A stretch of DNA of 35,278 bases, taken from the IMG/VR virus record IMGVR_UViG_3300046458_000135, positions 1 to 35,278 of that record. One strand, given 5' to 3'. The notes under the pieces were generated by a model. It was not told the origin of the DNA and did no database searches. It was given only the letters and a program-made list of their open reading frames with translations. Below, piece after piece: positions 477 to 18,064 of the stretch. Made by a program: the position numbers and the translations under genes. Positions within the stretch are counted from its first letter, which is position 1, and each line of letters starts with the position of its first letter. The DNA comes from a virus.

Positions 477-2522
477 ATGCGTAAGTGGCTTACTGCACAG
501 GAACTTGCTGGCCTGCCTGGTATGCCGAGCACTGATCGGAACGTGCGGGCAATGGCAGAGCGCGAGAACTGGAAAGGTCAGCGGCGCGTAGGCACCAAAG
601 CGGTGGAATATTCGTACCTGGCTCTCCCTTCGGAAACTCAGGCCGCAATCATTGCCGAGGCAGTGTCAGGTGCCGGTTCCTCTCTAGAGGCTGATACGAC
701 AGTTGTGGCTCTCCTTGAAGACGGCGGCTCTAAAACTGCGTCCCGTTTGACTGAGAAGCAACGGAAGGTGATGTCCGCCCGCCTTGCGTTCTGCCGGGAA
801 ATCGAGCGTGCATCTGTGCATTTCTCCCAAAAAGCCGCCATCGAAGCGATGGTGAAAAACGCGCAGCTTGGTTTGCTGTCGCCCTATTTGCAGGCTTGCG
901 TAGATGTAGCGAACGATAGAGCAACCGACGGTCGGGGTCTGTCAGAGCGAACGCTCAAGCGCTGGCTGTCAACTTGGCGTGCAGCAGGGCGCGACGAAAT
1001 CTCGCTTGCACCTCTGCGTCAACGCGCAAATTTGGAAGTGCCGGATTGGTTGGTAGCTTTTCTTCGGTGCTACCAGCGGCCTACCAAGCCGACGGTTGCG
1101 GCTAGCTATGCCGAATTCAAGCGCAGCTACGAAGGCGTATTGCCCAGCATTCATGCGGTCCAAAGGTTCCTCAAGAAGCTGTCGCCCGATGCCCTGAATA
1201 GCGGACGCATGAGCCCGCAGGAATTGAAGGCGCTACAGCCATTCAATCGGCGTGCAACCAAAAACCTTTTCCCTGGCGACGTTTATACCGCTGACGGACA
1301 CAAGTTCGATGCCGAGGTGGCAAACCCCATCACTGGCAAGCCGTACCGCCCGGAGATTACGACCGTATTAGATGTTGCTACCCGCAAAGTCGTGGGGGTT
1401 TCCGTAGGGGAAGCCGAATCAGCATTCGGCGTTTTGGACGCTTTGAGAGAGGCAGTGCGGGAGTGCATGTTCGCGATTTTCTATGTGGACAACGGTTCCG
1501 GCTTCGATAACCACACCGTTCGGGAGGTAGTGGATCGTCTAGGTGGGACGATGATGAATTCATTGCCCTACAACAGTCAGGCCCGAGGTTTGTCTGAGCG
1601 CGGACACCAGACAATCTGGGTGCGGGCCGCGAAGAAATTGACGAGCTACATCGGCGCAGACATGGACAAGCATGCGGGCACGCGGATTCATCGGATTGGT
1701 CGGAAAGAACTTCGTGAAACAGGCAAAACGCGTTTGATGCCTACGTTCGGGGAGTTCCTGGCTGGGATGGAAGCTGAGATTGCGGAATACAACCAGACGC
1801 CTCACAGAGGATTGCCGAAGTTTACAGACCCTGTCACCGGCTCCATTCGGCATATGAGTCCCGATGAAGCCTGGCAGATGGCGTTAGCAGAGGGCTGGGA
1901 GCCGATTGTTGCTGAGCAACACGTAGTCGACTCACTTATGCGGCCTCAAATAACGAGGACGACAAGTCGAGGAGAGATCGCGTGGGCGGGTCAGCGTTAT
2001 TTCCTTTCGGATCTAACGGCCTTTCATGGTGAAGAAATACGCATGGCCTACGACGTTAGAGATGCTAGCCATGTCTGGGCCTACACCATGGAAGGCGAAC
2101 TGATCGGCGCCGCGAAACTGGACGGAAACGTATCGGACTACATGCCCCGGAGCATGCTGGAGATTGCTCGCGATAAGCGCATCAAAGGGCAGTACAAAAG
2201 GACCGTGGACAAGATCGAGACGTTGACCGGTAACAAGGTCGATCTGATCGCCCCGACAACCGCCCCGTCAGCAAATCTTCCAGCATCTGCGCTTGAAGCG
2301 GCTTTGGAATATGCCAAGGACATGCAGTTGCAGCAGGAGGTTTTTGAGATCCCCAGTAACGATGTCGCACGGTATCGGTTGTGGAAGGACTTGAATGAGC
2401 GTCAGGCCGCAGGCGCGATCCTTAGTGCAGAGGAAGGCCGCTGGTGGAAGGGTTACTCAACCCATCCTGACCTGATTTTTCAGCGTGAGCTGATGGAAGG
2501 GTTTGAAAAAAACGCGGGCTGA
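477..2522 (+). CDS. A: Mu-type DDE transposase (MuA)
   Basis: This 681-residue protein carries out strand transfer for integration and replicative transposition, as MuA (663 residues) does. The N-terminus (about 1-60) is the winged-helix Mu DNA-binding domain, with the WLTAQEL start and a TKAVEY wing. The RNase H-like core shows the catalytic triad as D273 (TADGHKFD), D338 (YVDNGSGF) and E374 (GLSERGHQ). The last spacing of 36 residues fits a DDE enzyme. A beta-barrel domain lies at about 485-550, followed by a helical tail that in Mu contacts MuB and ClpX. It starts two bases after the Ner stop and lies at the head of the early operon. All catalytic residues are present, so the transposase looks intact. 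Confidence 0.96.
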   Translation: MRKWLTAQELAGLPGMPSTDRNVRAMAERENWKGQRRVGTKAVEYSYLALPSETQAAIIAEAVSGAGSSLEADTTVVALLEDGGSKTASRLTEKQRKVMSARLAFCREIERASVHFSQKAAIEAMVKNAQLGLLSPYLQACVDVANDRATDGRGLSERTLKRWLSTWRAAGRDEISLAPLRQRANLEVPDWLVAFLRCYQRPTKPTVAASYAEFKRSYEGVLPSIHAVQRFLKKLSPDALNSGRMSPQELKALQPFNRRATKNLFPGDVYTADGHKFDAEVANPITGKPYRPEITTVLDVATRKVVGVSVGEAESAFGVLDALREAVRECMFAIFYVDNGSGFDNHTVREVVDRLGGTMMNSLPYNSQARGLSERGHQTIWVRAAKKLTSYIGADMDKHAGTRIHRIGRKELRETGKTRLMPTFGEFLAGMEAEIAEYNQTPHRGLPKFTDPVTGSIRHMSPDEAWQMALAEGWEPIVAEQHVVDSLMRPQITRTTSRGEIAWAGQRYFLSDLTAFHGEEIRMAYDVRDASHVWAYTMEGELIGAAKLDGNVSDYMPRSMLEIARDKRIKGQYKRTVDKIETLTGNKVDLIAPTTAPSANLPASALEAALEYAKDMQLQQEVFEIPSNDVARYRLWKDLNERQAAGAILSAEEGRWWKGYSTHPDLIFQRELMEGFEKNAG

Positions 2523-2546
2523 TGGACAGCCCGCACTTAGAGCAGT

Positions 2547-2570
2547 CGGCGTGTTGGCGCACGCCGTTTT
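2547..2570 (+). terminator. Possible attenuator between transposase and activator genes
   Basis: CGGCGTG (2547-2553) and CACGCCG (2560-2566) form a perfect 7-bp GC-rich stem with a 6-base loop, followed by TTTT. This is the minimal shape of a weak intrinsic terminator. It ends just before the AGGAG ribosome binding site (2571-2575) of the next gene. It could lower expression of the activator relative to the transposase, or act as a translational structure. The short T run argues against strong termination. Confidence 0.4.
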
Positions 2571-2583
2571 AGGAGTAAGCACA

Positions 2584-3306
2584 GTGAGTGTAACCAAAGT
2601 CGTCGCTCTTACCAATGTAGGGCTATTGGGCGGTGCCATGCAGCGTGCTCAAGCACGACCTGTAGGGCTGCCGGGATTAGTTGTTATGTACGGCCCAAGC
2701 GGGCTGGGGAAAAGCGTAGCCGCGTCGTACGCCGCGAACCTTCACAGGGCGTATTACGTGGAGTGCCGGGATACCTGGTCTAAAAAGGCTTTCCTGATGG
2801 CTGTCTTGAAAGACATGGCTGTCGCGCCGGGTCGTACGCTAAGCGACATGATGGACCAGATCGCTGAGCAGCTATCGCGCTCCATGCGTCCGCTGATTGT
2901 CGATGACGTGCAGTACATGCTCGATAAGGCAATTGCGAACGTTCTGACCGACCTCTACAACGCGAGCCAAGGCACCATCGTCTTGATCGGGGAAGAGCGA
3001 GTTCCAGCCTCCTTGGCGAAGTTGGAGCGCCTTCATAACCGAGTCCTGGAATGGGTGCCAGCACAGCCGGCCACATTGGTGGACCTCAGGACGCTGGCTG
3101 AGGCGAACTACCCACAACTGAAAATGACCGATGACCTGCTTGAGGATTTGGGCCGTGCTACGCGGGGATGCCTACGTCGTGCCGCTGTAAACCTGCATCG
3201 TGTCCAAAGTGAGGCTTCGGCAAACATGTTGGATCGCATTGATCTAGCCACCTGGGGTAAGCGCGGCTGGTTCACTGGCGAAGCCCCAAGCCGGAGGGCT
3301 CATTGA
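2584..3306 (+). CDS. B: MuB-type AAA+ ATPase, transposition activator
   Basis: This 240-residue AAA+ protein follows the transposase as MuB does. MuB binds target DNA with ATP, delivers it to MuA and gives target immunity. Walker A is GPSGLGKS (37-44) and Walker B is LIVDD (D107, D108); a sensor-like TIVLIGEE segment follows. The GTG at 2584 has AGGAG eight bases upstream. An upstream ATG in the same frame (2503) has no such site and would start inside the transposase gene. At 240 residues it is shorter than Mu MuB (312) and lacks room for the N-terminal helix-turn-helix region, as in other short TniB/MuB relatives. The function is confident and its immunity behaviour is not known. Confidence 0.9.
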   Translation: MSVTKVVALTNVGLLGGAMQRAQARPVGLPGLVVMYGPSGLGKSVAASYAANLHRAYYVECRDTWSKKAFLMAVLKDMAVAPGRTLSDMMDQIAEQLSRSMRPLIVDDVQYMLDKAIANVLTDLYNASQGTIVLIGEERVPASLAKLERLHNRVLEWVPAQPATLVDLRTLAEANYPQLKMTDDLLEDLGRATRGCLRRAAVNLHRVQSEASANMLDRIDLATWGKRGWFTGEAPSRRAH

Positions 3307-5419: not shown

Positions 5420-5891
5420 GAAATGGCTTGAGCGTGAGGTGGGTCAGGGATTGATGGGGCTGGTTGCACTGCGTCTTGATGGGGCGCCTGCGGCTGACGC
5501 TATCACCCTGACGCTGGACATCTGGCTGGTCGCGCTGGGCAAGGGCAGCAAATGGGAAGAGTCGGTCGACGCGCTACGCATTCGCAAAGCATTCGAAACG
5601 CTCTATGCGACCTGCGAACGCTGGCCTGCCCCTGCTCGGCTCATGCGCGAACTCCGGCCAGCAGAGCCACAACGACAACTGGCTAGACCGAAACGAACAG
5701 AAGAACAACTCCAGACGGGGAACGAAGCATTGAGCCAGCTCATTGCGACGATGAGGCGCCAGGCCAGTTCCGATGCCGCTCTCAAGACAGATGAACAAAT
5801 TGAAGATTCAAAGAAACAGGCTCTGGCAGCACTTGCGGAATTGCAAAACCGGGCCTCTCAAACCAAAAACATGGAACAACCGAATCAATGA
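5412..5891 (+). CDS. Hypothetical early protein, helical
   Basis: The protein has 159 residues. The GTG at 5412 is supported by GGAGG at 5398-5402; it overlaps the previous gene by eight bases. The N-terminal half is compact and carries a WPAPARLMREL segment, recalling the Trp-Pro motif in some phage replication or helicase-loader-like small proteins. The C-terminal half is Gln/Lys/Glu-rich, probably a helical or disordered tail. The resemblance is loose and no function is claimed. Confidence 0.7.
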   Translation: MIEKWLEREVGQGLMGLVALRLDGAPAADAITLTLDIWLVALGKGSKWEESVDALRIRKAFETLYATCERWPAPARLMRELRPAEPQRQLARPKRTEEQLQTGNEALSQLIATMRRQASSDAALKTDEQIEDSKKQALAALAELQNRASQTKNMEQPNQ

Positions 5892-6532
5892 ACAACATCC
5901 CTGAAGGTTTTCGTAAGGACGCAAAAGGTCACTTGGTGCCCGAGGAATTGATTAAGCCGATTGACTTGGCCCGTGACGAGCTGGTGCTCGAACTGGTTGC
6001 AAAGGCCAAGGCTGTATCGGCGTCTTTGGCACAGTTCAAGGTCGCCGCTTTCGGCGACATCAAGGCATTCGTCGAGATGTCGGCGGAACAATACAAGGCC
6101 ACCATCGGCGGCAAGAAGGGGAACGTCACCCTGTTTGCATTCGATGGTCGTTTCAAAATCGTCCACGCCGTGCAGGACTCAATCAAGTTCGATGAACGCT
6201 TACAGGCGGCTCGCGTGTTGATCGACGAATGTGCCGCTGAGTGGACTCAGGATGCGCGTAGCGAAGTGCGCGTGCTGGTCAATGAAGCGTTTCGCACTGA
6301 CCGAGCGGGTGAGATCAGCACCGGTCGTGTGCTCGGCTTGCGCAGGCTGGAGATTCAGGACGAGCGCTGGCAGCGAGCTATGCAGGCCATTGGTGAGGCT
6401 GTCCAGGTCGTGGGTTCGAAAAGCTACGTCCGGGTTTATGAGCGTATCGGTGAGTCCGACCAATACGCCCCTATTCCGCTGGATATCGCGAGCATCTTTG
6501 TCGCAGACACTGTGCCATCGACGCTGCACTGA
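5888..6532 (+). CDS. DUF3164 family phage protein
   Basis: This 214-residue protein matches the DUF3164 family, which recurs in the early region of Mu-like phages. Recognisable parts are the N-terminal IPEGFRKDAKGHLVPEELI and the central GKKGNVTLFAFDGRFKI followed by ERLQAARVLIDECAAEW. It overlaps the preceding gene by four bases (ATGA). The family has no established biochemical role. Its constant place between the transposition genes and GemA suggests a part in early DNA metabolism, but that is inference. Confidence 0.88.
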   Translation: MNNIPEGFRKDAKGHLVPEELIKPIDLARDELVLELVAKAKAVSASLAQFKVAAFGDIKAFVEMSAEQYKATIGGKKGNVTLFAFDGRFKIVHAVQDSIKFDERLQAARVLIDECAAEWTQDARSEVRVLVNEAFRTDRAGEISTGRVLGLRRLEIQDERWQRAMQAIGEAVQVVGSKSYVRVYERIGESDQYAPIPLDIASIFVADTVPSTLH

Positions 6533-6588
6533 TTCGAAACCACAACATTAGAAAACTGCAAAACAGCCCAACCGAGAGAGTAGTACGA

Positions 6589-6822
6589 ATGGCTAAGTTC
6601 AATATCACCGTAGACGACACCACTGGCTCTGTATCCATCAGCATCGATAACAAGCATGACCTGCACAGCAGTGCGGCTGGCCGCGTCGTCGACGCCATGC
6701 TCAAAGGCGTAAAGCTGCTCGACCGCATTGCTTTGCCTATCACCTCCGCGACGCCTGGCTGCGATTGTGAGGTATGCCAAGCCACCCGCGAGCTGTACCA
6801 GACCAAACCAACTATCCATTAA
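6589..6822 (+). CDS. Small hypothetical protein with CDCEVC motif
   Basis: The protein has 77 residues. The N-terminal half is beta-rich (MAKFNITVDDTTGSVSISI), a central helix follows, and a CDCEVC cysteine cluster lies near residues 59-64. A purine-rich GAGAGAG site precedes the ATG. Its stop codon is only two bases before the first paired base of the ribozyme-like structure at 6825-6892, so the two probably share a transcript. I do not recognise a family. Confidence 0.65.
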   Translation: MAKFNITVDDTTGSVSISIDNKHDLHSSAAGRVVDAMLKGVKLLDRIALPITSATPGCDCEVCQATRELYQTKPTIH

Positions 6823-6824
6823 TT

Positions 6825-6892
6825 GAAGCGAAACCGCCTCGGGAAACCGGGGCGGTCTGCCCGCCGTGGTGGACGGGTACTGATGAGCAGCC
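6825..6892 (+). ncRNA. Type II hammerhead ribozyme candidate
   Basis: All conserved core positions are present in the type II (open stem II) order. C6829 precedes GAA (6830-6832). A6833 pairs with U6856 to open stem III, which is a continuous 10-bp helix (6833-6842 with 6847-6856, one U.G) closed by a GAAA tetraloop. The cleavage triplet G-U-C ends at C6857. Stem I pairs 6858-6863 with 6874-6879 (one G.U). CUGAUGA follows at 6880-6886, then G6887. Stem II is short: C6829-G6887 and G6828-C6888, then two purine mismatches and G6825-C6891. Predicted self-cleavage is between C6857 and U6858. The element fills the gap between an early gene and the ribosome binding site of the next. Cleavage would split the early mRNA, leaving a hairpin on each new end. 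The biological role is inference. Confidence 0.85.
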
Positions 6893-6901
6893 GAGGGAAA
6901 T

Positions 6902-7324
6902 ATGCAGCAGTCGGATTGGGACGAATTGAAGGAGCAGATGGGCCGCCCGTGGGGCGCTATGAGGCTCAAAGTTGATGGGTTCGATGTCGACCTGGTTCAG
7001 GTCACCCACCCAACCAAAAAGAGTTGGTCTACGGGTGTTTATGTCGACGGCTTCGTGAAAGGTATCTGGCTGGACTGTGACCACAAAACCGGCGAGCCCA
7101 AGCATGAAGAAACTCGGCGGTTCCTGCGCAAGATCACCCGACCTCTTCATACAAAAAAGGACATCGAGTTTTATCGGGAGCTACGCGGCAAGCGCGAAGC
7201 CACCAGACTCGCGGCCATTAAGTTCTATAGCTACGACTGGTTCTGGACCAGTTACGGCTCTCTGAAAAAACACCTGGAAGCGAATAACACCAGCATTGAG
7301 CGCGTGTCGGACACTCTCCACTAA
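6902..7324 (+). CDS. Hypothetical early protein downstream of the ribozyme
   Basis: This is a 140-residue soluble protein with GAGGG (6893-6897) just ahead of the ATG. Visible features are a beta-rich N-terminal half (VDGFDVDLVQVTHPTKKSW, then GVYVDGFVKGIWL) and a basic helical C-terminal half. It could be a small nucleic-acid-associated protein, but no family is recognised. It is the first gene after the hammerhead candidate. Its mRNA would begin 44 bases upstream of the ATG if cleavage occurs, with the stem I hairpin at its 5-prime end. Confidence 0.7.
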   Translation: MQQSDWDELKEQMGRPWGAMRLKVDGFDVDLVQVTHPTKKSWSTGVYVDGFVKGIWLDCDHKTGEPKHEETRRFLRKITRPLHTKKDIEFYRELRGKREATRLAAIKFYSYDWFWTSYGSLKKHLEANNTSIERVSDTLH

Positions 7325-7372
7325 TCAAGCATGATTCAGCCGCGCTGGCGGCGCTATTTGATGGGTAAACAT

Positions 7373-8053
7373 ATGGACCGTAAAAAGGCCCTGGACAAGA
7401 TCAAGAAATGCCTGCGGTTGGCTACCAGCGCCAATCCCAACGAGGCGGCGGCAGCGATGCGCCAGGCTCATGCCTTGATGAAGCAATACGGTATCGGCAA
7501 ATCTGACGTGGATATGGCTGATGTTGAGGAATGTACCGCTATCAGCGGTTCTAAAGTATCGCCACCGAAGTGGGAGGCGCAGCTCGCAGCCACTGTCTCA
7601 AAGGCATATGCCTGCAAAGTTATTTTCGCGGCAGGCATTGGCCGTTGGAATTTCATCGGTGAAATGGCTGAAGTGGCGGGCTACACCATGACGGTGCTTC
7701 TGCGCCAAATTCGCCAGGCGCGCCGGGACTTCATAGCAAACAAGCTTCAGCGTTGCAAAAACACCACAAAGGTGCGCCGAGCCGACGTGTTCTGCGAAGC
7801 CTGGGTAAGCGCGGTCTATGACCAGGTGATGACGTTCGCTAACGGTGAGCTGTCGCTCGCTGTAGAGCAATACCTCGCCCATCATTACCCGGATCTAACG
7901 ACGCAAAAGCCGCGTGACCGCAACGCCACGTCTCGTCGAAAGTTCGGCCTGCGAAGCATTAGTGACTCAATGCATGGTCTGCTCGCGGCGTCTGATGTTC
8001 GCTTGAATCACGGCATGAACAACTCCGCGCCTTTGGCACTGGAGGCATTGTGA
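7373..8053 (+). CDS. DUF2786 domain protein
   Basis: The protein has 226 residues. The start of the DUF2786 domain is clear (RKKALDKIKKCLRLATSANP, then EAAAAMRQAHALMKQYGI). A central part around residues 75-170 fits the second domain often found with it in phage proteins (WEAQLAATVSKAYACKV, then FIGEMAEVAGYTM). Three in-frame ATGs exist (7331, 7361, 7373); none has a strong ribosome binding site. The last is chosen because the domain starts there. The domain is common in phages and prophages and has no proven activity. The end overlaps the GemA gene. Confidence 0.82.
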   Translation: MDRKKALDKIKKCLRLATSANPNEAAAAMRQAHALMKQYGIGKSDVDMADVEECTAISGSKVSPPKWEAQLAATVSKAYACKVIFAAGIGRWNFIGEMAEVAGYTMTVLLRQIRQARRDFIANKLQRCKNTTKVRRADVFCEAWVSAVYDQVMTFANGELSLAVEQYLAHHYPDLTTQKPRDRNATSRRKFGLRSISDSMHGLLAASDVRLNHGMNNSAPLALEAL

Positions 8054-8451
8054 ATAACCGCAACCAGCAACTGAGCAAGATCCACATTGCTAAAAAAGAC
8101 CTCGCGCTTGATGACGACACCTACCGCGCCATGCTTGCGCGGGTAACCGGTAAATCGTCAGCCAAGGATCTGAGCCCGCTTGAAGCCGCAAAGGTGCTGC
8201 GCGAGCTTGAGCGTCTGGGCTGGAAGCCAAAGCAAGGCCGCGCGAAACCACAGCCTGCGCAGGATCGGGCGAAGCTTGTCGGGAAAATCGGTGCATTCCT
8301 GGCTGAAGCTAATCGAACTTGGGAGTATGCCGACGCGCTCGCGAAACGGCTTCACAAGGTCGAAAAGCTGGACTGGCTCAACCCTGAGCAACTCCGGGGC
8401 GTAGTGGCGGCTTTGGCCTATGACGCAAAACGAAACGGGAGGCGGCAATGA
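8050..8451 (+). CDS. gemA: GemA / Mu gp16 family regulatory protein
   Basis: This 133-residue protein has the family hallmark start QLSKIHIAKKDLALDDDTYR, then MLARVTGKSSAKDLS, a Lys-rich linker, and a second helical domain. The family (DUF1018, Mu gp16) includes GemA, reported in Mu to alter host gene expression and DNA supercoiling. The GTG start is in a 4-base overlap (GTGA) with the previous gene, with GGAGG four bases upstream. It lies directly before Mor, as in Mu. Confidence 0.88.
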   Translation: MNNRNQQLSKIHIAKKDLALDDDTYRAMLARVTGKSSAKDLSPLEAAKVLRELERLGWKPKQGRAKPQPAQDRAKLVGKIGAFLAEANRTWEYADALAKRLHKVEKLDWLNPEQLRGVVAALAYDAKRNGRRQ

Positions 8452-8897
8452 GTAACGGCGAACTGTTCGATAGCGACATCGATAAGCTGGACCAGGCCAA
8501 GGTTCTGGCCCATATGAACGACCCAATCGTGTTAGCACGTTGGGAAGGGACACTAATTGAGATGGCGAGCCTCGCAGAAGCGAAGCTGCGGGAAATCCTG
8601 ACTGACATGCCGGATGAGGTGCCAAAGATCGCGCGAGCTGTTGTCTACTCCATCTGTGAAACAATGGGTGGCTCAGTCGTGTATATTCCGCGCGGTGATA
8701 CTTTGCGGCGAGCCCTGCGTAATGCGGAAATTTTCCGCGAATGGCGGGAGAACAATTCCCGAGTCGATGAATTGGCGCGTAAGTTTGATCTTTCGAGTCA
8801 GGCACTTTATGACATCATTGCCCGACAGCGAGAACTACACCGGCGCAGTGAGCCGGATTTGTTCGGGTACAACGACCAGCCGCCAAGGCTGCATTAA
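8448..8897 (+). CDS. mor: Mor-type middle/late transcription activator
   Basis: This 149-residue protein matches the Mor/C family of Mu, dimeric activators that open phage promoters lacking a good -35. The dimerisation part contains GGSVVYIPRGD (about 74-84). The C-terminal helix-turn-helix is NNSRVDELARKFDLSSQALYDII (about 102-124). It is the last early gene and overlaps GemA by four bases. An intrinsic terminator follows directly. Since no second family member (C) is found before the late genes, this protein probably activates them itself; that is inference. Confidence 0.92.
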   Translation: MSNGELFDSDIDKLDQAKVLAHMNDPIVLARWEGTLIEMASLAEAKLREILTDMPDEVPKIARAVVYSICETMGGSVVYIPRGDTLRRALRNAEIFREWRENNSRVDELARKFDLSSQALYDIIARQRELHRRSEPDLFGYNDQPPRLH

Positions 8898-8911
8898 TAC
8901 TGATTCATCCA

Positions 8912-8936
8912 AGCCTCGCACTAGCGGGGCTTTTTC
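8912..8936 (+). terminator. Intrinsic terminator after the early operon
   Basis: AGCCTCGC (8912-8919) pairs with GCGGGGCT (8924-8931) through a 4-base loop, with a single T.G pair, and is followed directly by a T tract (ending TTTTTC). It lies 15 bases after the Mor stop. It would end early transcription, so late genes need their own promoter in 8937-9013 or an antitermination mechanism. Confidence 0.85.
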
Positions 8937-8942
8937 TTGCGT

Positions 8943-8960
8943 GTGCTGGAAATACAGCAC
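8943..8960. promoter_or_regulatory. Inverted repeat, candidate activator site
   Basis: GTGCTG (8943-8948) and CAGCAC (8955-8960) are perfect 6-base arms around a 6-base A/T-rich spacer. It lies just downstream of the early terminator and about 55-70 bases before the first late gene. That is a plausible distance for a Mor-type dimer to bind upstream of a promoter. No clear -35/-10 pair is visible nearby, as expected for an activator-dependent promoter. The assignment is inference. Confidence 0.4.
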
Positions 8961-8974
8961 TGTCCCATAGCGAG

Positions 8975-9010
8975 CGAATCTAGCCAGGTCCAAAACTTCT
9001 GGCAGATTCG
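8975..9010 (+). promoter_or_regulatory. Long hairpin immediately before the first late gene
   Basis: CGAATCTAGCCAG (8975-8987) and CTGGCAGATTCG (8999-9010) are complementary over 12 pairs with one bulged A (8982) and an 11-base loop. The stem ends three bases before the ATG at 9014 and covers the place where a ribosome binding site should be; none is otherwise visible. In DNA it is an imperfect palindrome that could be a protein site. In RNA it could block or shape translation start. Confidence 0.5.
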
Positions 9011-9013
9011 ACC

Positions 9014-9334
9014 ATGTTTGAATACGAACCTCTCTCTGCGGCATATGCCCAGCGCGTCATTGACGAACGCTGTGAGAAAGCGCGTAAACAACTTATTGAT
9101 GAATGCCGGGATGACTGGAGAACTTACGTCATCTCGCGGCTTGCCGCGCATAAACGCGACGTTGCGCTGAAAGCCAGCCAGCGTGGCGCGTACCAACCAC
9201 GAACTGAAATCGCAGCCTTTGAGCCTGGTCGCTATCGAGCACCGGCAAACGTGCGGGGCAATCCCGCCGTCGCTGCACATTCACTCTCCGATATCCGCTC
9301 CATCCTCAAACCAACTAAGGAAGTTCGTCGATGA
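9014..9334 (+). CDS. Hypothetical protein, first gene of the late/lysis operon
   Basis: This is a 106-residue basic protein. It has a helical first half (AYAQRVIDERCEKARKQLID, then DDWRTYVISRLAAHKRDVAL), and a looser second half ending in SLSDIRSILKPTKEV. No membrane segment or signal peptide is present. The start is the only plausible ATG but lies against the hairpin at 8975-9010. The stop overlaps the holin start by four bases, tying it to the lysis genes. I do not recognise a family. Confidence 0.65.
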   Translation: MFEYEPLSAAYAQRVIDERCEKARKQLIDECRDDWRTYVISRLAAHKRDVALKASQRGAYQPRTEIAAFEPGRYRAPANVRGNPAVAAHSLSDIRSILKPTKEVRR

Positions 9335-9633
9335 ACAACTTTCGCAGTCGTCTGCGCACGCGTCCGCGTCGAACGCCGCGCCTGACCAATTGGGCGCTAA
9401 TTACTGTTGTCCTGCTGATCGCGCTTTATCTGATCGCACCAACCAAGATTCCGGTCGTGCTTTACAAAGTCGTCCTGGTAACAGGTGGCGGTGTGTTGGG
9501 TTACTGGATCGACCGTGCTTTGTTTCCTTACGCCCGTCCTGATCGCGTCAGAGCTGCACATCAACCGTGGGCGGGTTTGCGCCGGGCTGTGGTGGTACTG
9601 GCGTGCGTTCTCGGCCTGACACTGGGGCTGTGA
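9331..9633 (+). CDS. Putative phage holin (2-3 transmembrane segments)
   Basis: The protein has 100 residues. A strongly basic N-terminus (RSRLRTRPRRTPR) is followed by hydrophobic segments at about 20-37 and 41-60. A short loop containing YWIDRALFPYARP and a third hydrophobic segment at 84-100 follow. This matches the layout of the small Pseudomonas-phage holins described as 2/3-transmembrane. It would disrupt the inner membrane at lysis. Position is decisive: it lies directly before an exported lytic transglycosylase and the spanins. The family match is from pattern, not from a search. Confidence 0.78.
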   Translation: MNNFRSRLRTRPRRTPRLTNWALITVVLLIALYLIAPTKIPVVLYKVVLVTGGGVLGYWIDRALFPYARPDRVRAAHQPWAGLRRAVVVLACVLGLTLGL

Positions 9634-9635
9634 AT

Positions 9636-10280
9636 ATGATTCAGAAATCGACTTTTCGTCCCCTTCTCTGGCTATTGCTGGTGCCTCTGGCGGTGCTAAG
9701 CAGCGGCGCGCCCGGTCCGGCTTACGCGGCTGTAGCGCCTGAGGCGGACCAGTATCGCCGCGAGCTGACTCGCATTGTCCAGGCGGAATGGGGCATTGAC
9801 GGCCCGGTTGCTGCATTTGCTGCTCAGGTTCACCAGGAATCACGCTGGCGCTTCAATGCCAAATCTCCCGTAGGCGCGCAAGGCTTGGGCCAGGTGATGC
9901 CCTCGACCGCCGCTTGGCTTGCGCAAGTGTTCCCGGAAACCTTGGGCAACGTTGAGCCCTATAACCCTGCGTGGTCGTTGATGGCCCTGGTCAGCTATGA
10001 CCGCTGGCTGGCTGATCGAATCAAAGCCCGCGATGCGTGCGAGCTGCATGCAATGGTCCTGTCTTCTTATAACGGCGGCCTCGGTTGGCTGATCCGCGAC
10101 CGTGCGTTGGCATCGGCTAAGGGGGCCGACCCGCTGACGTGGTTCGGATCGATTGAGCGGTTCAACTCGGGCCGCTCTGCCGCTGCCTTTCGCGAAAACC
10201 GTGGCTACCCCCAACTCATTCTCAAGCGCTTCGAAGCTGACTACATCGCCGCTGGCTGGGGTGAAGGGGTTTGCTCATGA
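9636..10280 (+). CDS. Exported lytic transglycosylase (endolysin), SLT domain
   Basis: The protein has 214 residues and starts at ATG 9636, two bases after the holin stop. A signal peptide is visible: MIQK, a Leu-rich core (10-22) and a likely cleavage after AYA (29-31). The SLT fold follows with catalytic E68 in QVHQESRWR, then SPVGAQGLGQVMP and SSYNGGLGW, the usual family motifs. It would cleave peptidoglycan glycan strands. With a Sec signal the enzyme reaches the periplasm without the holin, so the holin may mainly set lysis time. In Mu the endolysin sits in the same region. Confidence 0.9.
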   Translation: MIQKSTFRPLLWLLLVPLAVLSSGAPGPAYAAVAPEADQYRRELTRIVQAEWGIDGPVAAFAAQVHQESRWRFNAKSPVGAQGLGQVMPSTAAWLAQVFPETLGNVEPYNPAWSLMALVSYDRWLADRIKARDACELHAMVLSSYNGGLGWLIRDRALASAKGADPLTWFGSIERFNSGRSAAAFRENRGYPQLILKRFEADYIAAGWGEGVCS

Positions 10281-10927
10281 AGAGCCTGGTTGAATCCTTC
10301 GCCCCTGTCGCGCTCGGTCTGTTGCTCATTGCTTTGGTCGCAGTCGGCCTGGTCACCGTTTATGACACTGGACACAGCGCAGGTTTCGCCTCGGCGAAAG
10401 CTCAAGGCGACACGGCCTTGGCTGCGCTGCGTCTTGCGAATGAATCCGAGAAGGCCCGTGCCGCCGATGCTGCTGCCAAAGACATGCAGGCGGCAGCGGA
10501 AAACCTGCTCGCTGAGCAGGCTCGCGGCAATCAGTTGGCTGCGGACCTTGGTGCCAAAAAGACCGAACTGCGCACCGTCACCGACAAGCTCAATCGAGAA
10601 ATCCAGAATGTTACGACCCTCTACCGCCGCGCAATCGGCGCACAAGCCGAGCCGTTGCCTCCTGCTTTGTTCACTGCTGGCTTTGTCCGCGTGTGGAACG
10701 ACGCCCTCAGTGGCGCCGTTTCCCCAGTCCCAATGCCTGCCTCCGGCACCGCCACCGGCGGAACTGATGCAACGCCCAACGGAGCCGGAACCGCTGACGA
10801 CCTAATTGTTGGCATAACCCGCGCTGACCTCCTGACCAACCATGTGCGCAACGGTGAGGGCTACGCCTCATGCCGCGCCCAGCTCAATGCTCTGATCGAC
10901 TGGAACACTAACCATGGACGTAACTGA
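10277..10927 (+). CDS. Rz: Rz-like i-spanin
   Basis: The protein has 216 residues. A single N-terminal membrane anchor (about 9-29, VALGLLLIALVAVGLVTVYD) is followed by a long Ala/Lys/Glu-rich helical region (35-115) typical of spanin coiled coils. It would reach across the periplasm and, with the lipoprotein o-spanin, fuse inner and outer membranes at the last step of lysis. The ATG at 10277 overlaps the endolysin stop (ATGA). An o-spanin gene is embedded in a different frame in its 3-prime half. At 216 residues it is longer than many Rz proteins; the extra part lies beyond the embedded gene. Confidence 0.88.
   Translation: MKSLVESFAPVALGLLLIALVAVGLVTVYDTGHSAGFASAKAQGDTALAALRLANESEKARAADAAAKDMQAAAENLLAEQARGNQLAADLGAKKTELRTVTDKLNREIQNVTTLYRRAIGAQAEPLPPALFTAGFVRVWNDALSGAVSPVPMPASGTATGGTDATPNGAGTADDLIVGITRADLLTNHVRNGEGYASCRAQLNALIDWNTNHGRN
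10608..10805 (+). CDS. Rz1: Rz1-like o-spanin lipoprotein, embedded in Rz
   Basis: This 65-residue protein is read in another frame wholly inside the i-spanin gene. The signal CLLLCSLLALSAC ends in the lipobox LSAC, so C29 should be lipidated. The mature part is short and proline-rich (LPPAPPPAELMQRPTEPEP), as in Rz1 proteins. Nested Rz/Rz1 genes are a known lysis arrangement. The ATG at 10608 is chosen because it leaves a normal lipoprotein signal. The frame is open further upstream (to 10290), but that part is just the shadow of Rz. Confidence 0.9.
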   Translation: MLRPSTAAQSAHKPSRCLLLCSLLALSACGTTPSVAPFPQSQCLPPAPPPAELMQRPTEPEPLTT

Positions 10928-11126
10928 TATCGCCTCCGAGCTGGAAGACTCCTTTCGCGAGCAGGCACTGGAAGCACTTCGCTCTGTACAAACCCACCAC
11001 ACCGGAGTTTCCGCCACGCACTGCGAGTGCTGTGGGGAGGCGATTCCCGAGGCGCGCCGAGTGATTTTGCCGGGTGTTGACCTGTGCGTGGGCTGCAAAA
11101 GCGACATGGAACGGATGGGGCGCTAA
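10914..11126 (+). CDS. TraR/DksA-family C4 zinc-finger protein
   Basis: The protein has 70 residues. A short helical N-terminus is followed by a C4 zinc finger: C37-x2-C40 and C58-x2-C61 (HCECCGEAIPEARR, then DLCVGCKSD). That is the TraR/DksA signature. Family members bind the secondary channel of RNA polymerase; TraR-size proteins act without ppGpp. It overlaps the i-spanin end by 14 bases and the next gene by one. It could adjust host or phage transcription late in infection. Confidence 0.9.
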   Translation: MDVTDIASELEDSFREQALEALRSVQTHHTGVSATHCECCGEAIPEARRVILPGVDLCVGCKSDMERMGR

Positions 11127-11458
11127 TGAGCACTGTTGAACTTCCGATTTGGCAACTCATCACCGCAGGCGCTGGCCTCCTGGGGTGTTTTGTCGGCGTG
11201 CTCAAGGTTCTTTTCTCTGCGGTTGAAAGACGACTCGACCAGCGTTTTGCGGTCATGGATGGCCGCTTTGAAGAACTCGCCAAAGACTCTGACCGACTGC
11301 GCCAGGTTGAGCTTGGCCTGGAGCGCCTGAGAGGCGAAATGCCGCTCCACTACGTGCGCCGCGAAGACTTCGTGCGCAACCAAACCGTTATCGAAGCCAA
11401 GCTCGATGCCTTGGCTCTGAAGCTTGAAAACGTCCAGCTCAAAGGAGCGCGTCAATGA
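11126..11458 (+). CDS. DUF2730 / Mu gp25-like membrane-anchored coiled-coil protein
   Basis: The protein has 110 residues. One N-terminal membrane segment (about 9-32, LITAGAGLLGCFVGVLKVLF) is followed by charged heptad-like helices (RRLDQRFAVMDGRFEELA and a second at 75-108). It starts at the TAATG overlap with the zinc-finger gene. Position and build match Mu gp25 (DUF2730), whose role is unknown. Because it follows the spanins it could also play a part in lysis, but nothing specific supports that. Confidence 0.8.
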   Translation: MSTVELPIWQLITAGAGLLGCFVGVLKVLFSAVERRLDQRFAVMDGRFEELAKDSDRLRQVELGLERLRGEMPLHYVRREDFVRNQTVIEAKLDALALKLENVQLKGARQ

Positions 11459-11766
11459 ACATCGACCCCGCGAAGGCCCGGCGCGAAGCCCTGCGCTGGT
11501 ACATCCTGTTGACTCTAAATACCAGCCGCCCAGTCGATCCGCATGAAGCGGTGGTGCTGTCGACCATTCAGGGAATCTATCCAGATGCAACCGCCATGGA
11601 GCTACGTCGCGAGCTGGACTACCTGGCAGACCGCTCGTTAGTGACGCTCGTTAAGCAGCCAAGCGGCGTCTGGATCTGCGGCTTGACGCATTACGGAGTA
11701 GATATCGCGGAGTACACCATTGAGTGCAATCCGGGTATTGCTCGTCCTCAAAAATACTGGTCCTGA
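11455..11766 (+). CDS. Mu gp26-like winged-helix protein
   Basis: The protein has 103 residues. Helices at about 5-24 and 30-62 and a closing beta wing (LVTLVKQPSGVWICGLTHYG) suggest a winged-helix fold. It lies between the gp25-like and gp27-like genes, exactly where Mu has gp26. It overlaps the previous gene by four bases. Function is unproven; DNA binding near the packaging genes is plausible. The clear tail NPGIARPQKYW fits this phage family. Confidence 0.78.
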   Translation: MNIDPAKARREALRWYILLTLNTSRPVDPHEAVVLSTIQGIYPDATAMELRRELDYLADRSLVTLVKQPSGVWICGLTHYGVDIAEYTIECNPGIARPQKYWS

Positions 11767-11768
11767 CC

Positions 11769-12281
11769 ATGCCCCCGCGTAGCAAGGTCGCAGCCCTGCC
11801 GCCCGAGCTGAAAGCTTGGCTCGATCAGAACCTGGTCGCGAACAACTTCAGCGGATACGAGGCCCTGTCCGCAGAGCTGGAATCACGCGGTTATTCAATC
11901 GGCAAGAGCGCACTGCACCGCTATGGCAGTGAGTTCGAAGACAAGCTTGCCGCGTTGAAGATGTCCAGCGAGCAGGCTAAAGCAGTGGTTCAGGCCGCGC
12001 CAGATGACGAAGGCGCAGTCAACGAGGCGCTGATGCGTCTTGTCCAGGAACACTTATTCAAACTGCTGATGGCGTCGGATGGGAAAATGGATTTGCCCAA
12101 GGTCGCAAAGGCCGTCGCCGAACTGGGGCGAGCGTCTGTTGTGCAGGCGAAATGGAAAACTGAGGTCCGCGCCCGAGCGGAAATGGCTGCGAGCCAGGTC
12201 GAGAAGATCGCCAAGAAAGGTGGGCTTAACGCAGAGACAGTGGCTGAAATCCGGCGTGAGATTTTGGGGGTGGCGTCGTGA
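11769..12281 (+). CDS. DUF3486 / Mu gp27-like, probable small terminase subunit
   Basis: The protein has 170 residues. An N-terminal helix-turn-helix (PRSKVAALPPELKAWLDQNL, then ALSAELESRGYSIGKSALHR) is followed by helical oligomerisation regions with EHLFKLLMASDGKMDLPKVA. DUF3486 members lie directly before the large terminase in Mu-like phages and act as DNA-recognition (small terminase) subunits. It starts two bases after the previous stop and overlaps the terminase gene by four bases. Confidence 0.87.
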   Translation: MPPRSKVAALPPELKAWLDQNLVANNFSGYEALSAELESRGYSIGKSALHRYGSEFEDKLAALKMSSEQAKAVVQAAPDDEGAVNEALMRLVQEHLFKLLMASDGKMDLPKVAKAVAELGRASVVQAKWKTEVRARAEMAASQVEKIAKKGGLNAETVAEIRREILGVAS

Positions 12282-13861
12282 GCCCCATGCTTCGTGAATC
12301 AGTCCCATCTGAGCGTTCTCCCCTCGCTGACATCATCAGCGTTGGGCAGGTAGTAGACGTTCCTTCGGTGCTCCTGGAGTACCAGAAAGATTGGATCGGC
12401 ATCCGTGCCCCGCTCAAGATTGCCGAAAAATCTCGCCGTATTGGCCTGACATGGGCTGAGGCTGCCGACAACGTACTGGTCGCCGCCTCCGAAAAGATGG
12501 CCGGAGGGCAGACGGTTTATTACCTGGGATACAACCAGGACATGACCGTCGAGTACATTCAAGCGTGTGCTATGTGGTCGCGGGCGTTCAACTACGCGGC
12601 GGGCGAGATTGAAGAAGGCATTTGGCCTGATGAAGATCCTGACAAGCACATCAAGACCTTCACCATTACGTTTCCAAGCGGGCACCGCATCGTTGCCCTG
12701 ACCAGTCGCCCGAGTAACCTGCGGGGCCGTCAGGGCGTGGTTGTGATTGACGAAGCGGCATTCCACCAGGATCTAGCCGAGCTGCTAAAGGCTGCACTTG
12801 CGCTGCTGATCTGGGGCGGTGAGGTGCATGTGATCAGCACGCATGATGGCGCTGACAACGCGTTCAATGAGTTGCTAGAAGACGTTCGCGCAGGCAAACG
12901 CAAAGGTGTGGTTTTCCGCTGCACATTCCGTGAAGCAGTCGAGGACGGGCTTTATGATCGCGTCTGCTTGCGAAAGGGCATCCCGTTCGTTGAGTCAGAG
13001 CGTGATGCGTGGGTCCAAGACGTTTACGACTTTTACGGCGAAGCTGCCAACGAAGAGCTTGATTGCATCCCTAGCCAGGGTGGCGGCGCATACCTGTCAC
13101 TTGCGCTGGTCGAGAGTCGCACCAGCCGCGAAGTCCCTGTGGTGCGTCTGGCGTACCCTCAAGGCTATGAAACCATCGCTGAACATCTTCGTTTAGCAGA
13201 GTCGCTGGAGTGGTGCGAGCGCGAGCTGTTGCCGCTGCTGGCTCAGATTCCTACCGACGTTCAATCGTTCTACGGGATGGACTTTGGCCGATCTGGCGAC
13301 CTTTCGGTGTTCTGGCCGCTGCTCCTGGAGCAGAACTTGCGCAAGCGCACACCGTTTGTGGTCGAGCTTCGCAACGTACCTTTCGCCCAGCAGAAACAAA
13401 TCAAGTTCTACATCATCGACCGCCTGCCAAACTTCCACAAAGGCGCGGACGATGCGCGAGGTAACGGATCGCAGATTTCTGAAGACACTGCGGTGCGATA
13501 CGGCTTCAACCGAATCGAGCGGGTGATGTTCACCGAGAGTTGGTATCGGGACAACATGCCCCCGTTCAAGGCTGCGCTTGAAGACGACACCCTATACGGC
13601 ATCCCTGCCGACAAGGACGTGACCGGTGACATCCGGGCTTTCCGGGTTGTGAAAGGCGTAGCCCGTATCCCCGAGCAGCGCACGACCGAAAAGGGCGGTG
13701 CCAAACGCCACGGCGACGCTGGCATTGCACTGGTTTTGGCTGACTTTGCCAGCCGCCAGGACGTTGAAATATTCGAATATCACCGCGTACAGCCATCCGC
13801 CCAGCATGACCGTCAGGTTCAGCTAGGTGCGGGCTGGCGCTCTGCAAAAGGCATCTGGTAA
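12278..13861 (+). CDS. Large terminase (Mu gp28-like) ATPase/nuclease
   Basis: The protein has 527 residues. It packages DNA into proheads and cuts it by a headful mechanism. The ATPase part has an atypical Walker A-like KSRRIGLTW (51-59), Walker B VVVIDEA (D158, E159) and a coupling motif STHDG (187-191). The nuclease domain begins near 332 with GMDFGRSGDLS (D335 is a likely metal ligand). The GTG at 12278 overlaps the previous stop (GTGA) with a G-rich site upstream; the ATG at 12287 is an alternative. All expected parts are present. Confidence 0.94.
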   Translation: MSPMLRESVPSERSPLADIISVGQVVDVPSVLLEYQKDWIGIRAPLKIAEKSRRIGLTWAEAADNVLVAASEKMAGGQTVYYLGYNQDMTVEYIQACAMWSRAFNYAAGEIEEGIWPDEDPDKHIKTFTITFPSGHRIVALTSRPSNLRGRQGVVVIDEAAFHQDLAELLKAALALLIWGGEVHVISTHDGADNAFNELLEDVRAGKRKGVVFRCTFREAVEDGLYDRVCLRKGIPFVESERDAWVQDVYDFYGEAANEELDCIPSQGGGAYLSLALVESRTSREVPVVRLAYPQGYETIAEHLRLAESLEWCERELLPLLAQIPTDVQSFYGMDFGRSGDLSVFWPLLLEQNLRKRTPFVVELRNVPFAQQKQIKFYIIDRLPNFHKGADDARGNGSQISEDTAVRYGFNRIERVMFTESWYRDNMPPFKAALEDDTLYGIPADKDVTGDIRAFRVVKGVARIPEQRTTEKGGAKRHGDAGIALVLADFASRQDVEIFEYHRVQPSAQHDRQVQLGAGWRSAKGIW

Positions 13862-15405
13862 TGGCTCGCTCTCCCATCGTCGACCAATACGGTCGCGGTA
13901 TTGAATACGATCAGCTCACAGCAGAGGTTGCCGCTCCGCGAGTCACCGGCGTGCGGCAGGTTTGGCATCCTTCTGTCGCGGGCGGCCTGACACCGGGTCG
14001 CCTTGCGAGCTTGTTGCAGGCCGCGACTGAGGGCGATGCCCGCGACTACCTGACACTCGCCGAGGAAATGGAAGAGCGTGACCTGCATTACGCTTCAGTG
14101 CTCGGCACGCGCAAGCTCGCGGTTGCTGGGTTGAACGTTCGTGTAGAGGCTGCAACAGACGAAGCGGAAGACATTCGCCGTGCCGATATCGTTCGCGAGG
14201 TCGTGGAGTCTCCGGAGTTCGGCGAGCTACAGACTGACCTCACTGACGCTTTGAGCAAAGGCTACTCGGTTGCTGAAATCATCTGGGACCGCAGCGGCAG
14301 GACATGGACACCGCAGCGTTTTGAATGGCGTGATCCCCGCTTTTTCATGTTCGACCGCGCGACCGGGCAAGAGCTGCGCCTGCTCGATGAGTCGGATGTT
14401 GTGAACGGCCTGCAATTGGCGCCTTACAAGTTCATTGTCCATAAGCCTCGCCTGCGTACAGGCCTGCCGATTCGCGGTGGCCTTGCACGCTTGGCCGCAG
14501 TGGCCTACATGTGCAAAGCGTGGACGTGGAAAGACTGGATGGGGTTCGCGGACATCTACGGCATTCCAATGCGTGTCGGTCGCTACGGGCCGAACGCCAG
14601 TAAAGAAGATATTGGCGTGCTGATGTCCGCAGTGGCGAACCTGGGCAGCGATGCGGCAGCGGTCATTCCCGAGTCAATGCGCATTGACTTCACTCAGGCC
14701 GCAAATGTCGCCGGGGCTGGCGACTTCTTCAAGGGTCTGGCCGAGTGGTGGGACAAGCAAATCAGTAAAGCCGTAGTCGGCCAGACGATGAGTGCCGACG
14801 ATGGGGCAAGCTTGGCGCAGGCCAAGGTTCACAATGAGGTGCGCCTAGACCTGCTCGATGCCGATGCAAAGGCCGAGAGCAATACGCTCAACCGCATGTT
14901 TGTCCGACCGTTCTGCGATCTGAACTTTGCGCCTGGTCGAAAATACCCGCGTCTGGTCATCGATGTACCAAAGCCGGAGAACCTTGAGTTGCTAATTAAG
15001 GCAGTTCAAGTGTTCGTGCCGCTTGGCCTGCGGGTGGAGCAGTCCGTGATTCGGGATAAGTTCGGGTTGCCCGAGCCAGCCGAAGGCGCAGAAATCATGG
15101 GGACTGCGAAGGCGCCTGCCGTTGCGACCGCAGCCAACCGCGAGCAGTCGGCCAGCGCAACGCCTCTGCCTGACGTTGTAGATAACCAGGTCAACACGTT
15201 GGCGGCAGCTGCCGCAGCACCTATGGATGACATGGTAGATGCCATCCGCGAACTGCTCGATTCGGCATCGAGCCTGGAGGACTTCCGGGACCGACTGATT
15301 GAGGCGTACCCGAACATGACTAGCGGCCAGCTCGCAAACGCCATGGCGGACGGTATGACAGCTGCGAGCATGGCTGGTCGATACGATGTGTTAAGGGGGC
15401 TTTAG
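13861..15405 (+). CDS. Portal protein (DUF935, Mu gp29-like)
   Basis: This 514-residue protein forms the dodecameric DNA gate of the head. The DUF935 family is recognisable from AEEMEERDLHYASVLGTRKL, KGYSVAEIIWDRSG, the WTWKDWMGFADIYGIPMRVG segment and TMSADDGASLAQAKVH. It starts on the stop codon of the terminase gene (TAATG). In Mu the minor head gene follows directly. Here a gene on the opposite strand is inserted and its stop codon overlaps the portal stop by four bases. The C-terminal 90 residues are Ala-rich and end in the helix-rich DFRDRLIEAYPNMTSGQLAN. Confidence 0.94.
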   Translation: MARSPIVDQYGRGIEYDQLTAEVAAPRVTGVRQVWHPSVAGGLTPGRLASLLQAATEGDARDYLTLAEEMEERDLHYASVLGTRKLAVAGLNVRVEAATDEAEDIRRADIVREVVESPEFGELQTDLTDALSKGYSVAEIIWDRSGRTWTPQRFEWRDPRFFMFDRATGQELRLLDESDVVNGLQLAPYKFIVHKPRLRTGLPIRGGLARLAAVAYMCKAWTWKDWMGFADIYGIPMRVGRYGPNASKEDIGVLMSAVANLGSDAAAVIPESMRIDFTQAANVAGAGDFFKGLAEWWDKQISKAVVGQTMSADDGASLAQAKVHNEVRLDLLDADAKAESNTLNRMFVRPFCDLNFAPGRKYPRLVIDVPKPENLELLIKAVQVFVPLGLRVEQSVIRDKFGLPEPAEGAEIMGTAKAPAVATAANREQSASATPLPDVVDNQVNTLAAAAAAPMDDMVDAIRELLDSASSLEDFRDRLIEAYPNMTSGQLANAMADGMTAASMAGRYDVLRGL

Positions 15406-16061
15406 TCATCTTCTAAAGGGGACGAGACTTTCAACATTCCAATGGCTTGCTTTTTAGCCAGCGGTTCAGCTCGACGGTAAACAGACATTAAAAGCTTCAT
15501 CTTCATGAGTTTATTGCCCTTGGTTCTTGCGTCTAACATTTGGTCCTCCTCCGGGGATAGGCCAAGCACCCGAACCATGTCTGCACAAGATTTTTCGCAA
15601 AAGTCGAGCGTACTTTTCGCGAGTTTCAGCTCTTCAAGATTCGCTTCCAACGAGCTCAATTTGCGCTCTCGAATGCCTTTTTGAATGTGGTGGTAAACGT
15701 CATGACAAGCTCTGATGCTGCCCGCGATGTGTCCTACTATTTTGTAAACGGTGAAGGCGACTCCTGCCAACGTTGCCAGCTCAATGAAGCCGGGAGATGC
15801 ATAGGTGATTCGCTTCACCTGTGGCTGGTATTCCTCCGGGATCTTTCTAAAAACATCATGGAAAAAATTCACCGTGCTGAAGCCGCCACGCCACGGGAGG
15901 TTCGAATAGCTGAGCTCAACCTCTAGGTCGCCACGGTCAGCTAGGTTCGGCGCCAGCGAGTAGGCGAAAGCGTATAGCTGGTTATATAGCTTGCTGACTT
16001 CGCCGAAGTTTTCCAGTGTCCATTCTTTATCCAGCAACAGCTTTACCCGTTCAGACTCCAT
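15402..16061 (-). CDS. Cargo (moron) gene of unknown function, opposite strand
   Basis: The protein has 219 residues and is read against all neighbours. The ATG at 16061 has AAGGAG six to seven bases upstream (AAAAAGGAGCTGGTT), the clearest such site in the window. The frame continues 33 codons upstream, but that part overlaps the start of the minor head gene. A hand count over 15421-15660 gives about 47% GC, against about 60% in the portal gene, a sign of separate acquisition. The N-terminal 85 residues are soluble (about 60-90: FSTVNFFHDVFRKIPEEY). A hydrophobic segment follows ASPGFIEL (about 91-117), and the C-terminal half (130-205) is charged and helical. No family is recognised. Superinfection exclusion or defence is a guess from its position and form. 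Confidence 0.85.
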   Translation of the reverse strand: MESERVKLLLDKEWTLENFGEVSKLYNQLYAFAYSLAPNLADRGDLEVELSYSNLPWRGGFSTVNFFHDVFRKIPEEYQPQVKRITYASPGFIELATLAGVAFTVYKIVGHIAGSIRACHDVYHHIQKGIRERKLSSLEANLEELKLAKSTLDFCEKSCADMVRVLGLSPEEDQMLDARTKGNKLMKMKLLMSVYRRAEPLAKKQAIGMLKVSSPLEDD

Positions 16062-16086
16062 AACCAGCTCCTTTTTAATTGCACCG

Positions 16087-16115
16087 ATAGTGCCCGGTTC
16101 TATAACCCCGTTCAA
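16087..16115 (-). promoter_or_regulatory. Possible promoter and operator of the cargo gene
   Basis: On the minus strand TTGAAC (16115-16110) is a good -35. After 17 bases CACTAT (16092-16087) is a poor -10, three of six. The spacer holds a 12-base inverted repeat, GGTT-ATAG-AACC (16107-16096), which could be an operator. Transcription would start about 20 bases before the cargo ATG. The evidence is weak but the location, a 67-base gap between two divergent starts, fits. Confidence 0.35.
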
Positions 16116-16128
16116 TCGCAGGAAGACT

Positions 16129-17412: not shown

Positions 17413-17515
17413 AAAACCCCGCGCCGCCACACGAGGTCACACCCTGGCTGTAGGCTTGGAGGTTCTGGCGGGAACTGCTCAACCAATGGGCGTTTATAGA
17501 TAGTAGGAGGCATCC

Positions 17516-18064
17516 ATGTCCGGTGCAATGCTTGATGTAACTGTCGATGCCTCAACAGTAGGTCAAGCGCTGGAGCAACTGATAGAGCGCTTGGGGTCGT
17601 TGCGTACACCCTTGCTCGACATCGCCGAGTATCTGCACCAATCCACCGATGCCCGAGCACGTCGCCAGGTAGGGCCGGATGGCACTCCCTGGGCACCTTT
17701 GTCGGCTCGGACCCTCGCCAGGAAGAAAGGCAAAAAGATCCTGCGTGAGTCCGGCGCTTTGCTCGATACCCTGCGTCACCAGGTCAGCGGCGACGAATTG
17801 CAGTTCGGTACTGATCGGCCATACGGTGCCATCCACCAGTTCGGCGGCACCATCGAGCATGCGGCTCGATCACAGCAGGTTTACTTCAAGGAAAAAGGCG
17901 GAGTTGTCGGCAACCGTTTCGTGAAGAAGCGGCAGTCCAACTTTTCCCAATGGGTGACGCACGGAGAGCGATCCACTCAAATGCCCGCTCGACCCTATCT
18001 CGGCCTCTCCCGCGAAGACGAAACAGAGGTGTTGGAGATCGTTTCGAGCTATCTCAAGGGCTAA
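17516..18064 (+). CDS. G: Virion morphogenesis protein (Mu gpG-like tail completion)
   Basis: The protein has 182 residues. It matches the phage virion morphogenesis family (Mu G, P2 S-like), which completes the tail end that joins the head. Hallmarks are GPDGTPWAPLSARTLARKK, ILRESGALLDTLRHQV and YGAIHQFGG, then the closing MPARPYLGLSREDE. The ATG at 17516 follows AGGAGG (17505-17510). A 103-base gap separates it from the minor head gene; nothing recognisable is seen there. Confidence 0.9.
   Translation: MSGAMLDVTVDASTVGQALEQLIERLGSLRTPLLDIAEYLHQSTDARARRQVGPDGTPWAPLSARTLARKKGKKILRESGALLDTLRHQVSGDELQFGTDRPYGAIHQFGGTIEHAARSQQVYFKEKGGVVGNRFVKKRQSNFSQWVTHGERSTQMPARPYLGLSREDETEVLEIVSSYLKG

Follow-up and report, generated by a model that had tools for sequence, protein, structure and literature searches.

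The early operon of a Mu-like phage carries a complete type II hammerhead ribozyme between its transposition genes and the genes for GemA and Mor, and many related phages carry the same RNA at the same place. The window, meaning the whole 35,278-bp IMG/VR record analyzed here, encodes transposase A, transposition protein B, a DUF3164 protein, GemA, Mor, a Mu gp27-like protein and a Mu-type portal. Our best explanation, which we hold with a probability of about 0.72 from sequence comparisons, is that the hammerhead is active and would cut the early operon RNA once, between C6857 and U6858, giving the transposition genes and the GemA/Mor genes separate fates.

A complete type II hammerhead between early genes

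Rfam covariance models placed a single RNA family in the 35,278-bp window, Hammerhead_II (RF02276), which matched positions 6826-6896 of the + strand over model positions 1-66 of 66 with 67.5 bits (E 3.9e-12; gathering cut-off, 37 bits). The match bears out a preliminary description of the window, which had placed a full type II hammerhead among the early genes of a Mu-like prophage, and a base-by-base check found every core base where that description had placed it. The type II core (C3 U4 G5 A6 N7 G8 A9, G12 A13 A14, A15.1-U16.1 and H17) is complete. According to the sequence and the Rfam structure line, stems I and III are closed by loops and stem II is open at both ends.

Read 5' to 3' on the + strand, the element starts with the 3' strand of stem II (6828-6829), in which G6828 and C11.1 (C6829) pair to C6888 and G6887, followed by the catalytic G12 A13 A14 (6830-6832). 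The stem III hairpin (6833-6856) has ten pairs, 6833-6842 with 6847-6856, counted from A15.1-U16.1 (A6833/U6856), and a GAAA loop at 6843-6846. The cleavage triplet is G6855-U6856-C6857, and hammerhead numbering predicts cleavage between C17 (6857) and U1.1 (6858). The stem I hairpin (6858-6879) consists of six pairs, 6858-6863 with 6874-6879, two more (C6864-G6872 and C6865-G6871) above a bulged A6873, and the loop GUGGU at 6866-6870. The catalytic CUGAUGA (6880-6886) and the 5' strand of stem II (6887-6888, G10.1 at G6887 and C6888) complete the core. A free-energy fold recovered the two closed stems, I and III, and missed the two-pair stem II, and its z-score of -2.1 is weak support taken alone.

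A feature missed by the preliminary description is a pseudoknot between loop I and the 3' tail, which is part of the type II consensus as published (PMC3088659). By comparison with that consensus, UGGU at 6867-6870 is predicted to pair with GCCG at 6890-6893, and relatives show covariation there from GG/CC to AG/CU. The last pair of the pseudoknot uses G6893, the first G of the Shine-Dalgarno sequence GAGGG. Two of the four pseudoknot pairs in the window are G-U, and these, together with a stem II of two pairs, may slow cutting. Neither the sequence nor the Rfam match showed an extra aptamer-like domain in this element of about 70 nt. The site was also considered as a terminator and rejected, as the consensus terminator scan did not list it.

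The surrounding genes follow the Mu-like early operon order in Pfam matches, with transposase A and B and then GemA and Mor on one strand. Mu-type transposase A (477-2522; PF02316, PF09299; phrog_310) and transposition protein B, an AAA ATPase (2503-3306; PF13401, PF05621), lie upstream, as do the DUF3164 protein (5888-6532; PF11363, 1.9e-82) and a 77-aa gene with a PHROG match to phrog_3652 (6589-6822). Downstream of the ribozyme, the ribosome binding site GAGGG (6893-6897) serves a 140-aa gene starting at ATG 6902 (6902-7324; PHROG match to phrog_5671), followed by a DUF2786/DUF7168 protein identified by domain match (7331-8053), GemA (8050-8451; PF06252, 1.4e-27) and Mor, the activator of middle transcription (8448-8897; PF08765, 1.1e-21). 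Immediately after Mor, a consensus scan predicted a terminator-like hairpin on the + strand (8911-8942; nine pairs, then TTTCTT), where the early operon probably ends. A scan of the window between 6300 and 9400 turned up no promoter-like site and, given this and the strong hairpin at 8911, a single early transcript plausibly crosses the ribozyme. The preliminary description had the element filling the whole space from stop codon to ribosome binding site. This is nearly so: five nucleotides (TTGAA) separate the upstream stop, which ends at 6822, from stem II, which starts at 6828. It also took the downstream mRNA to be that of GemA and Mor; both are indeed downstream, but the phrog_5671 and DUF2786/DUF7168 genes come before them.

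A fixed place among Mu-like phages

The same RNA family was found in 30 of 31 related records (26 collected through DUF3164 and five named phages through blast with the ribozyme region) and in 48 of 50 further records collected by transposase or GemA. Named phages with RF02276 matches include DMS3 (NC_008717.1, 8950-9021; 66.2 bits), D3112 (NC_005178.1, 9439-9510; 66.2 bits), JBD24 (8476-8547; 68.1 bits), RcapMu (11131-11201; 71.9 bits), Chromohalobacter YPCBV-1 (7490-7554; 78.3 bits) and Shewanella MuM16-1 (6550-6622; 62.2 bits). By blastn, the ribozyme is common to more than 100 Pseudomonas phage records, and the flanking genes have no DNA-level match.

To count copies by position, we used a home-made descriptor consisting of the core and minimum stems. 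Run on 308 loci (3.7 Mb), it matched 357 times; an equally long first-order Markov control gave 2 matches. A ribozyme pattern had brought in some of the loci, so later tests were limited to those retrieved by protein (DUF3164, transposase or GemA) and a few named phages; the locus counts rest on IMG/VR fragments, on this descriptor and on HMMs for which four or five proteins were the input. We had 107 distinct loci in which both transposase and GemA occur, nearly all of them protein-collected, and 91 had a descriptor match between the two genes on the coding strand. Five of the 16 descriptor-negative loci, in which Rfam finds the ribozyme (L135, L147, L221, L274 and L275), raise the count to 96/107, and leaving out the five phages found through the ribozyme gives an unbiased rate of about 91/102; three of the five Rfam-positive loci were read and have an intact core upstream of GemA, with the longest GemA frame running back over the core in two. 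On the opposite strand of the transposase-GemA interval, the descriptor found no hammerhead in any of the 107 loci.

The position within the operon is narrowly set. The last copy lies at 0.69-1.0 of the transposase-GemA interval, and the gene before the first copy belongs to the phrog_3652 family, kin of D3112 orf16, in 64 of the 91 positive loci and is HU-like in 12. The downstream side is mostly occupied by one or another of four families: phrog_5671, the DUF2786/7168 gene, a gene of 92 aa, or GemA itself. Stem II directly adjoins the stop codon in 85 of about 120 copies, and the end of CUGANGA is often 9-16 nt upstream of a start codon.

A gene of 92-98 aa after the last hammerhead (at about 9022 in DMS3, about 9511 in D3112, and in about 30 relatives) starts 9-11 nt past CUGANGA; it has no recognizable ribosome binding site, yet its N-terminus, MT(D/N/Q)ET...RLAR, is conserved. 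DMS3 gp17 is annotated from a later start and may be missing its N-terminus. In D3112 (NC_005178.1, about 9511-9660), the gene shifts frame after MTNE relative to its relatives and may be frameshifted or missequenced.

RF02276 was not found above cut-off in Mu, B3, SuMu, VW-6B, Kp4866-3, POA1180, BalMu-1 or StopSmel, and no other Rfam family was found in the early regions of the ribozyme-free Mu, B3, SuMu, VW-6B, Kp4866-3, POA1180, StopSmel, L151, L222 and L229. Because Mu, B3 and SuMu lack it, the ribozyme step is dispensable for Mu-type growth as such. Such dispensability in some lineages is what would be expected of a decayed or neutral hammerhead carried as a passenger of phage mosaicism. 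We strongly disfavor that view: on a transposase tree of 76 rows made by a quick method, 60 of 61 members of the large clade that includes the window are positive, and the presence/absence label changes five times, compared with 10.5 times in shuffles, none of 500 of which was as low. The invariance of the core, described below, likewise speaks against a passenger. The deeper history of the element is unsure, given the long branches outside the large transposase clade.

Paired copies and arrays

The descriptor found one copy in 60 of the 91 positive loci and two in 31. In the two-copy loci (for example L128, L143 and L180), one or two exchangeable genes lie between the copies, at spacings mostly of about 430, 700 and 1117 nt. 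Recent duplication as the source of this arrangement was rejected, since copies from the same genome are 0.85 alike, compared with 0.87 for first copies between genomes.

The pairs raise the possibility that the cut serves a small RNA or an RNA circle: two flanking cuts would release an RNA the length of a gene, whose ends, a 5'-OH and a 2',3'-cyclic phosphate, RtcB ligase would join into a circular mRNA. The 31 loci whose copies enclose one or two genes at a spacing of 429-1117 nt have the geometry for this, but a single copy is found in the window and in most loci (60 of 91), and Perreault et al. sought circular or spliced products and found none (PMC3088659). We regard this explanation as quite improbable.

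Larger arrays also occur. The record IMGVR_UViG_3300017605_000570 (L025; bases 6000-22000 are L325) has 24 tandem type II hammerheads on one strand between 9.9 and 17.5 kb, far exceeding the pairs and triples reported in 2011. Each small gene has roughly one hammerhead, and most of the hammerheads are succeeded by a ribosome binding site and an ATG; two of ten scanned proteins gave weak PHROG matches, both of unknown function. A second record of 6146 bp, IMGVR_UViG_3300046664_000025 (L006), has nine type II hammerheads in 6.1 kb, eight of them above the Rfam cut-off.

Compensatory changes and an invariant core

For covariation, we used 33 representatives picked by core letters, with no pairing demanded of the pairs under test. 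Compensatory changes were seen in stem III pairs 3-8, stem I pair 5 and pseudoknot pair 2, in agreement with the comparison of relatives suggested in the preliminary description, which looked to stems I and III. Both sides of stem I pair 5 are changed in 18 of the 33 representatives, and three pseudoknot positions are paired in all 33, with GC replaced by AU or CG at one. Covariation of stem III pairs 3-6 and 8, stem I pair 5 and pseudoknot pair 2 each exceeded all of 1000 shuffles, a significance that is overstated because the shuffles ignore relatedness; the occurrence of GC, CG, AU and UA as pair types is independent of them. In L180, L187, L192, L269, L272 and L293, a small internal loop that recurs among these copies breaks stem III (for example CCUAGCCCC...GGGGCGAUGG); it may be a motif of tandem non-Watson-Crick pairs.

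In the reverse selection, candidates were picked by stems and pseudoknot only, leaving the core free. They fell into two groups: 78 differ from the core at no more than one position, and 15, which we take as noise, differ at seven or more; none lay between. The 73 distinct true sequences keep all catalytic bases, including U16.1-C17 at the predicted cleavage site, with variation confined to N7 (U, C, G or A) and one C at U4. Two of the findings that the preliminary description said would refute it, a missing covariance-model match and altered core bases in related phages, were thus looked for and not seen. N7 is the sole position of CUGANGA left free in the published consensus (PMC3088659). 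This invariant catalytic core with variation at N7 is the strongest evidence here that selection acts on cutting and not on folding alone.

These observations bear on two further explanations. The RNA might fold and remain uncut, its hairpin stabilizing the message or tuning translation with the ribosome binding site held in the pseudoknot, and cutting being slow or absent in the cell. The place of the first Shine-Dalgarno base in the last pseudoknot pair suits this idea, and folding could be impeded by ribosomes on the neighboring stop and start codons, but an uncut RNA would have no need for invariant G12, A14, G5, G8 and C17 across 73 sequences, and we consider it unlikely. Alternatively, the ribozyme could be kept as a segment of DNA homology for cassette swapping, with its fold as inherited baggage. 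The near-constant upstream gene family, the alternation of four families downstream, and the fact that DNA similarity with D3112-type phages lies mainly in the ribozyme are all compatible with this. Compensatory changes and a core varying only at N7 fit RNA function instead, and two copies within a genome resemble each other no more closely than copies from different genomes do, leaving this the least credible explanation after that of a neutral passenger.

Predicted processing of the early transcript

In the reading that we prefer, an active hammerhead, cleavage would occur during or soon after transcription. The upstream piece, from transposase A and B to the 77-aa gene, would end 35 nt past the last stop codon with a 10-bp hairpin and a 2',3'-cyclic phosphate. 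The downstream piece, with the cassette genes, GemA and Mor, would start 35 nt ahead of the ribosome binding site, with a 5'-OH followed by an 8-bp hairpin. In DMS3 and D3112 the corresponding new 5' end is predicted at 8983 of NC_008717.1 and 9472 of NC_005178.1. The suggestion of the preliminary description that cutting would part transposition genes from GemA and Mor, with a hairpin near each new end, agrees with this anatomy and with the gene order. In bacteria, exonucleases that degrade RNA from the 3' end are impeded by a hairpin there, and RNase E, a sensor of 5'-monophosphate, is evaded by a structured 5'-OH end. Both new ends should resist the main decay routes because one bears a hairpin at its 3' end and the other a structured 5'-OH, and the two pieces would gain separate lifetimes and translation with no host nuclease. 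The likeliest role is RNA processing that parts the transposition genes from the cassette-GemA-Mor block. Counting against this explanation, 4 of the 18 consensus hammerheads tested by Perreault et al. were uncut in vitro (PMC3088659).

Translation should compete with folding, because a ribosome at the adjoining stop or start overlaps core bases. This competition is offered as an idea and does not amount to evidence for the switch of which the preliminary description spoke; we saw no sign that cutting is conditional. A broader proposal, tentative and on balance doubtful, is that self-cleavage may be a built-in, selected step of the lytic program in a large Mu-like group, which would set the ratio and timing of transposition proteins relative to Mor while competing with ribosomes on the stop and start codons beside the element.

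Relation to known systems and implications

Type II hammerheads are known from prophages, often several around single genes, with cleavage observed in vitro and, for one set, in E. coli (PMC3088659). The element described here resembles these RF02276 prophage hammerheads in topology, core, two-pair stem II, pseudoknot, intergenic place in a prophage operon and proposed processing into gene-length RNAs. Perreault et al. (2011) found that the genes next to hammerheads were not constant, and the main text of that study includes no transposable phage (PMC3088659), whereas here the ribozyme has one place in one phage group and is near universal in the sample. The hammerheads of PaP3, Bcep176 and the A. 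tumefaciens ardA triple are also intergenic in phages, and the ardA set cut in vitro and in E. coli (PMC3088659), but all belong to other phage groups, and the cores of PaP3 and Bcep176 are variant. A 2017 review treats the role of prokaryotic hammerheads, which it links to phages, as an open question (PMC6155905).

A literature search covering article main texts found no report linking hammerheads with Mu-like, D3112, DMS3, RcapMu or Pseudomonas phages; these copies may already be among those annotated by Rfam itself. Novelty is narrower than the preliminary description supposed, since prophage-operon hammerheads beside genes were published in 2011 (PMC3088659); the new part appears to be their fixed place in Mu-like, transposable phages. 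For transcriptomes of P. aeruginosa transposable phages, we found one paper, on the B3-like Fc02; B3 lacks the ribozyme.

In the early polycistronic RNA of phage T7, RNase III cuts fixed intergenic hairpins to yield stable gene-sized mRNAs. The working proposed here is similar, except that T7 requires the host RNase III, whereas the Mu-like RNA would cut itself. Because a conserved copy sits at a fixed place in DMS3, D3112 and JBD24, which are lab-grown and editable, the purpose of bacterial hammerheads is open to test: one stem-preserving base change could reveal the role of cutting in RNA stability, Mor timing, lysogeny and burst size. If cutting matters, the early control of Mu-like phages would gain a step that is absent from Mu itself, and their RNA-seq data would need to be read with a built-in cut in mind.
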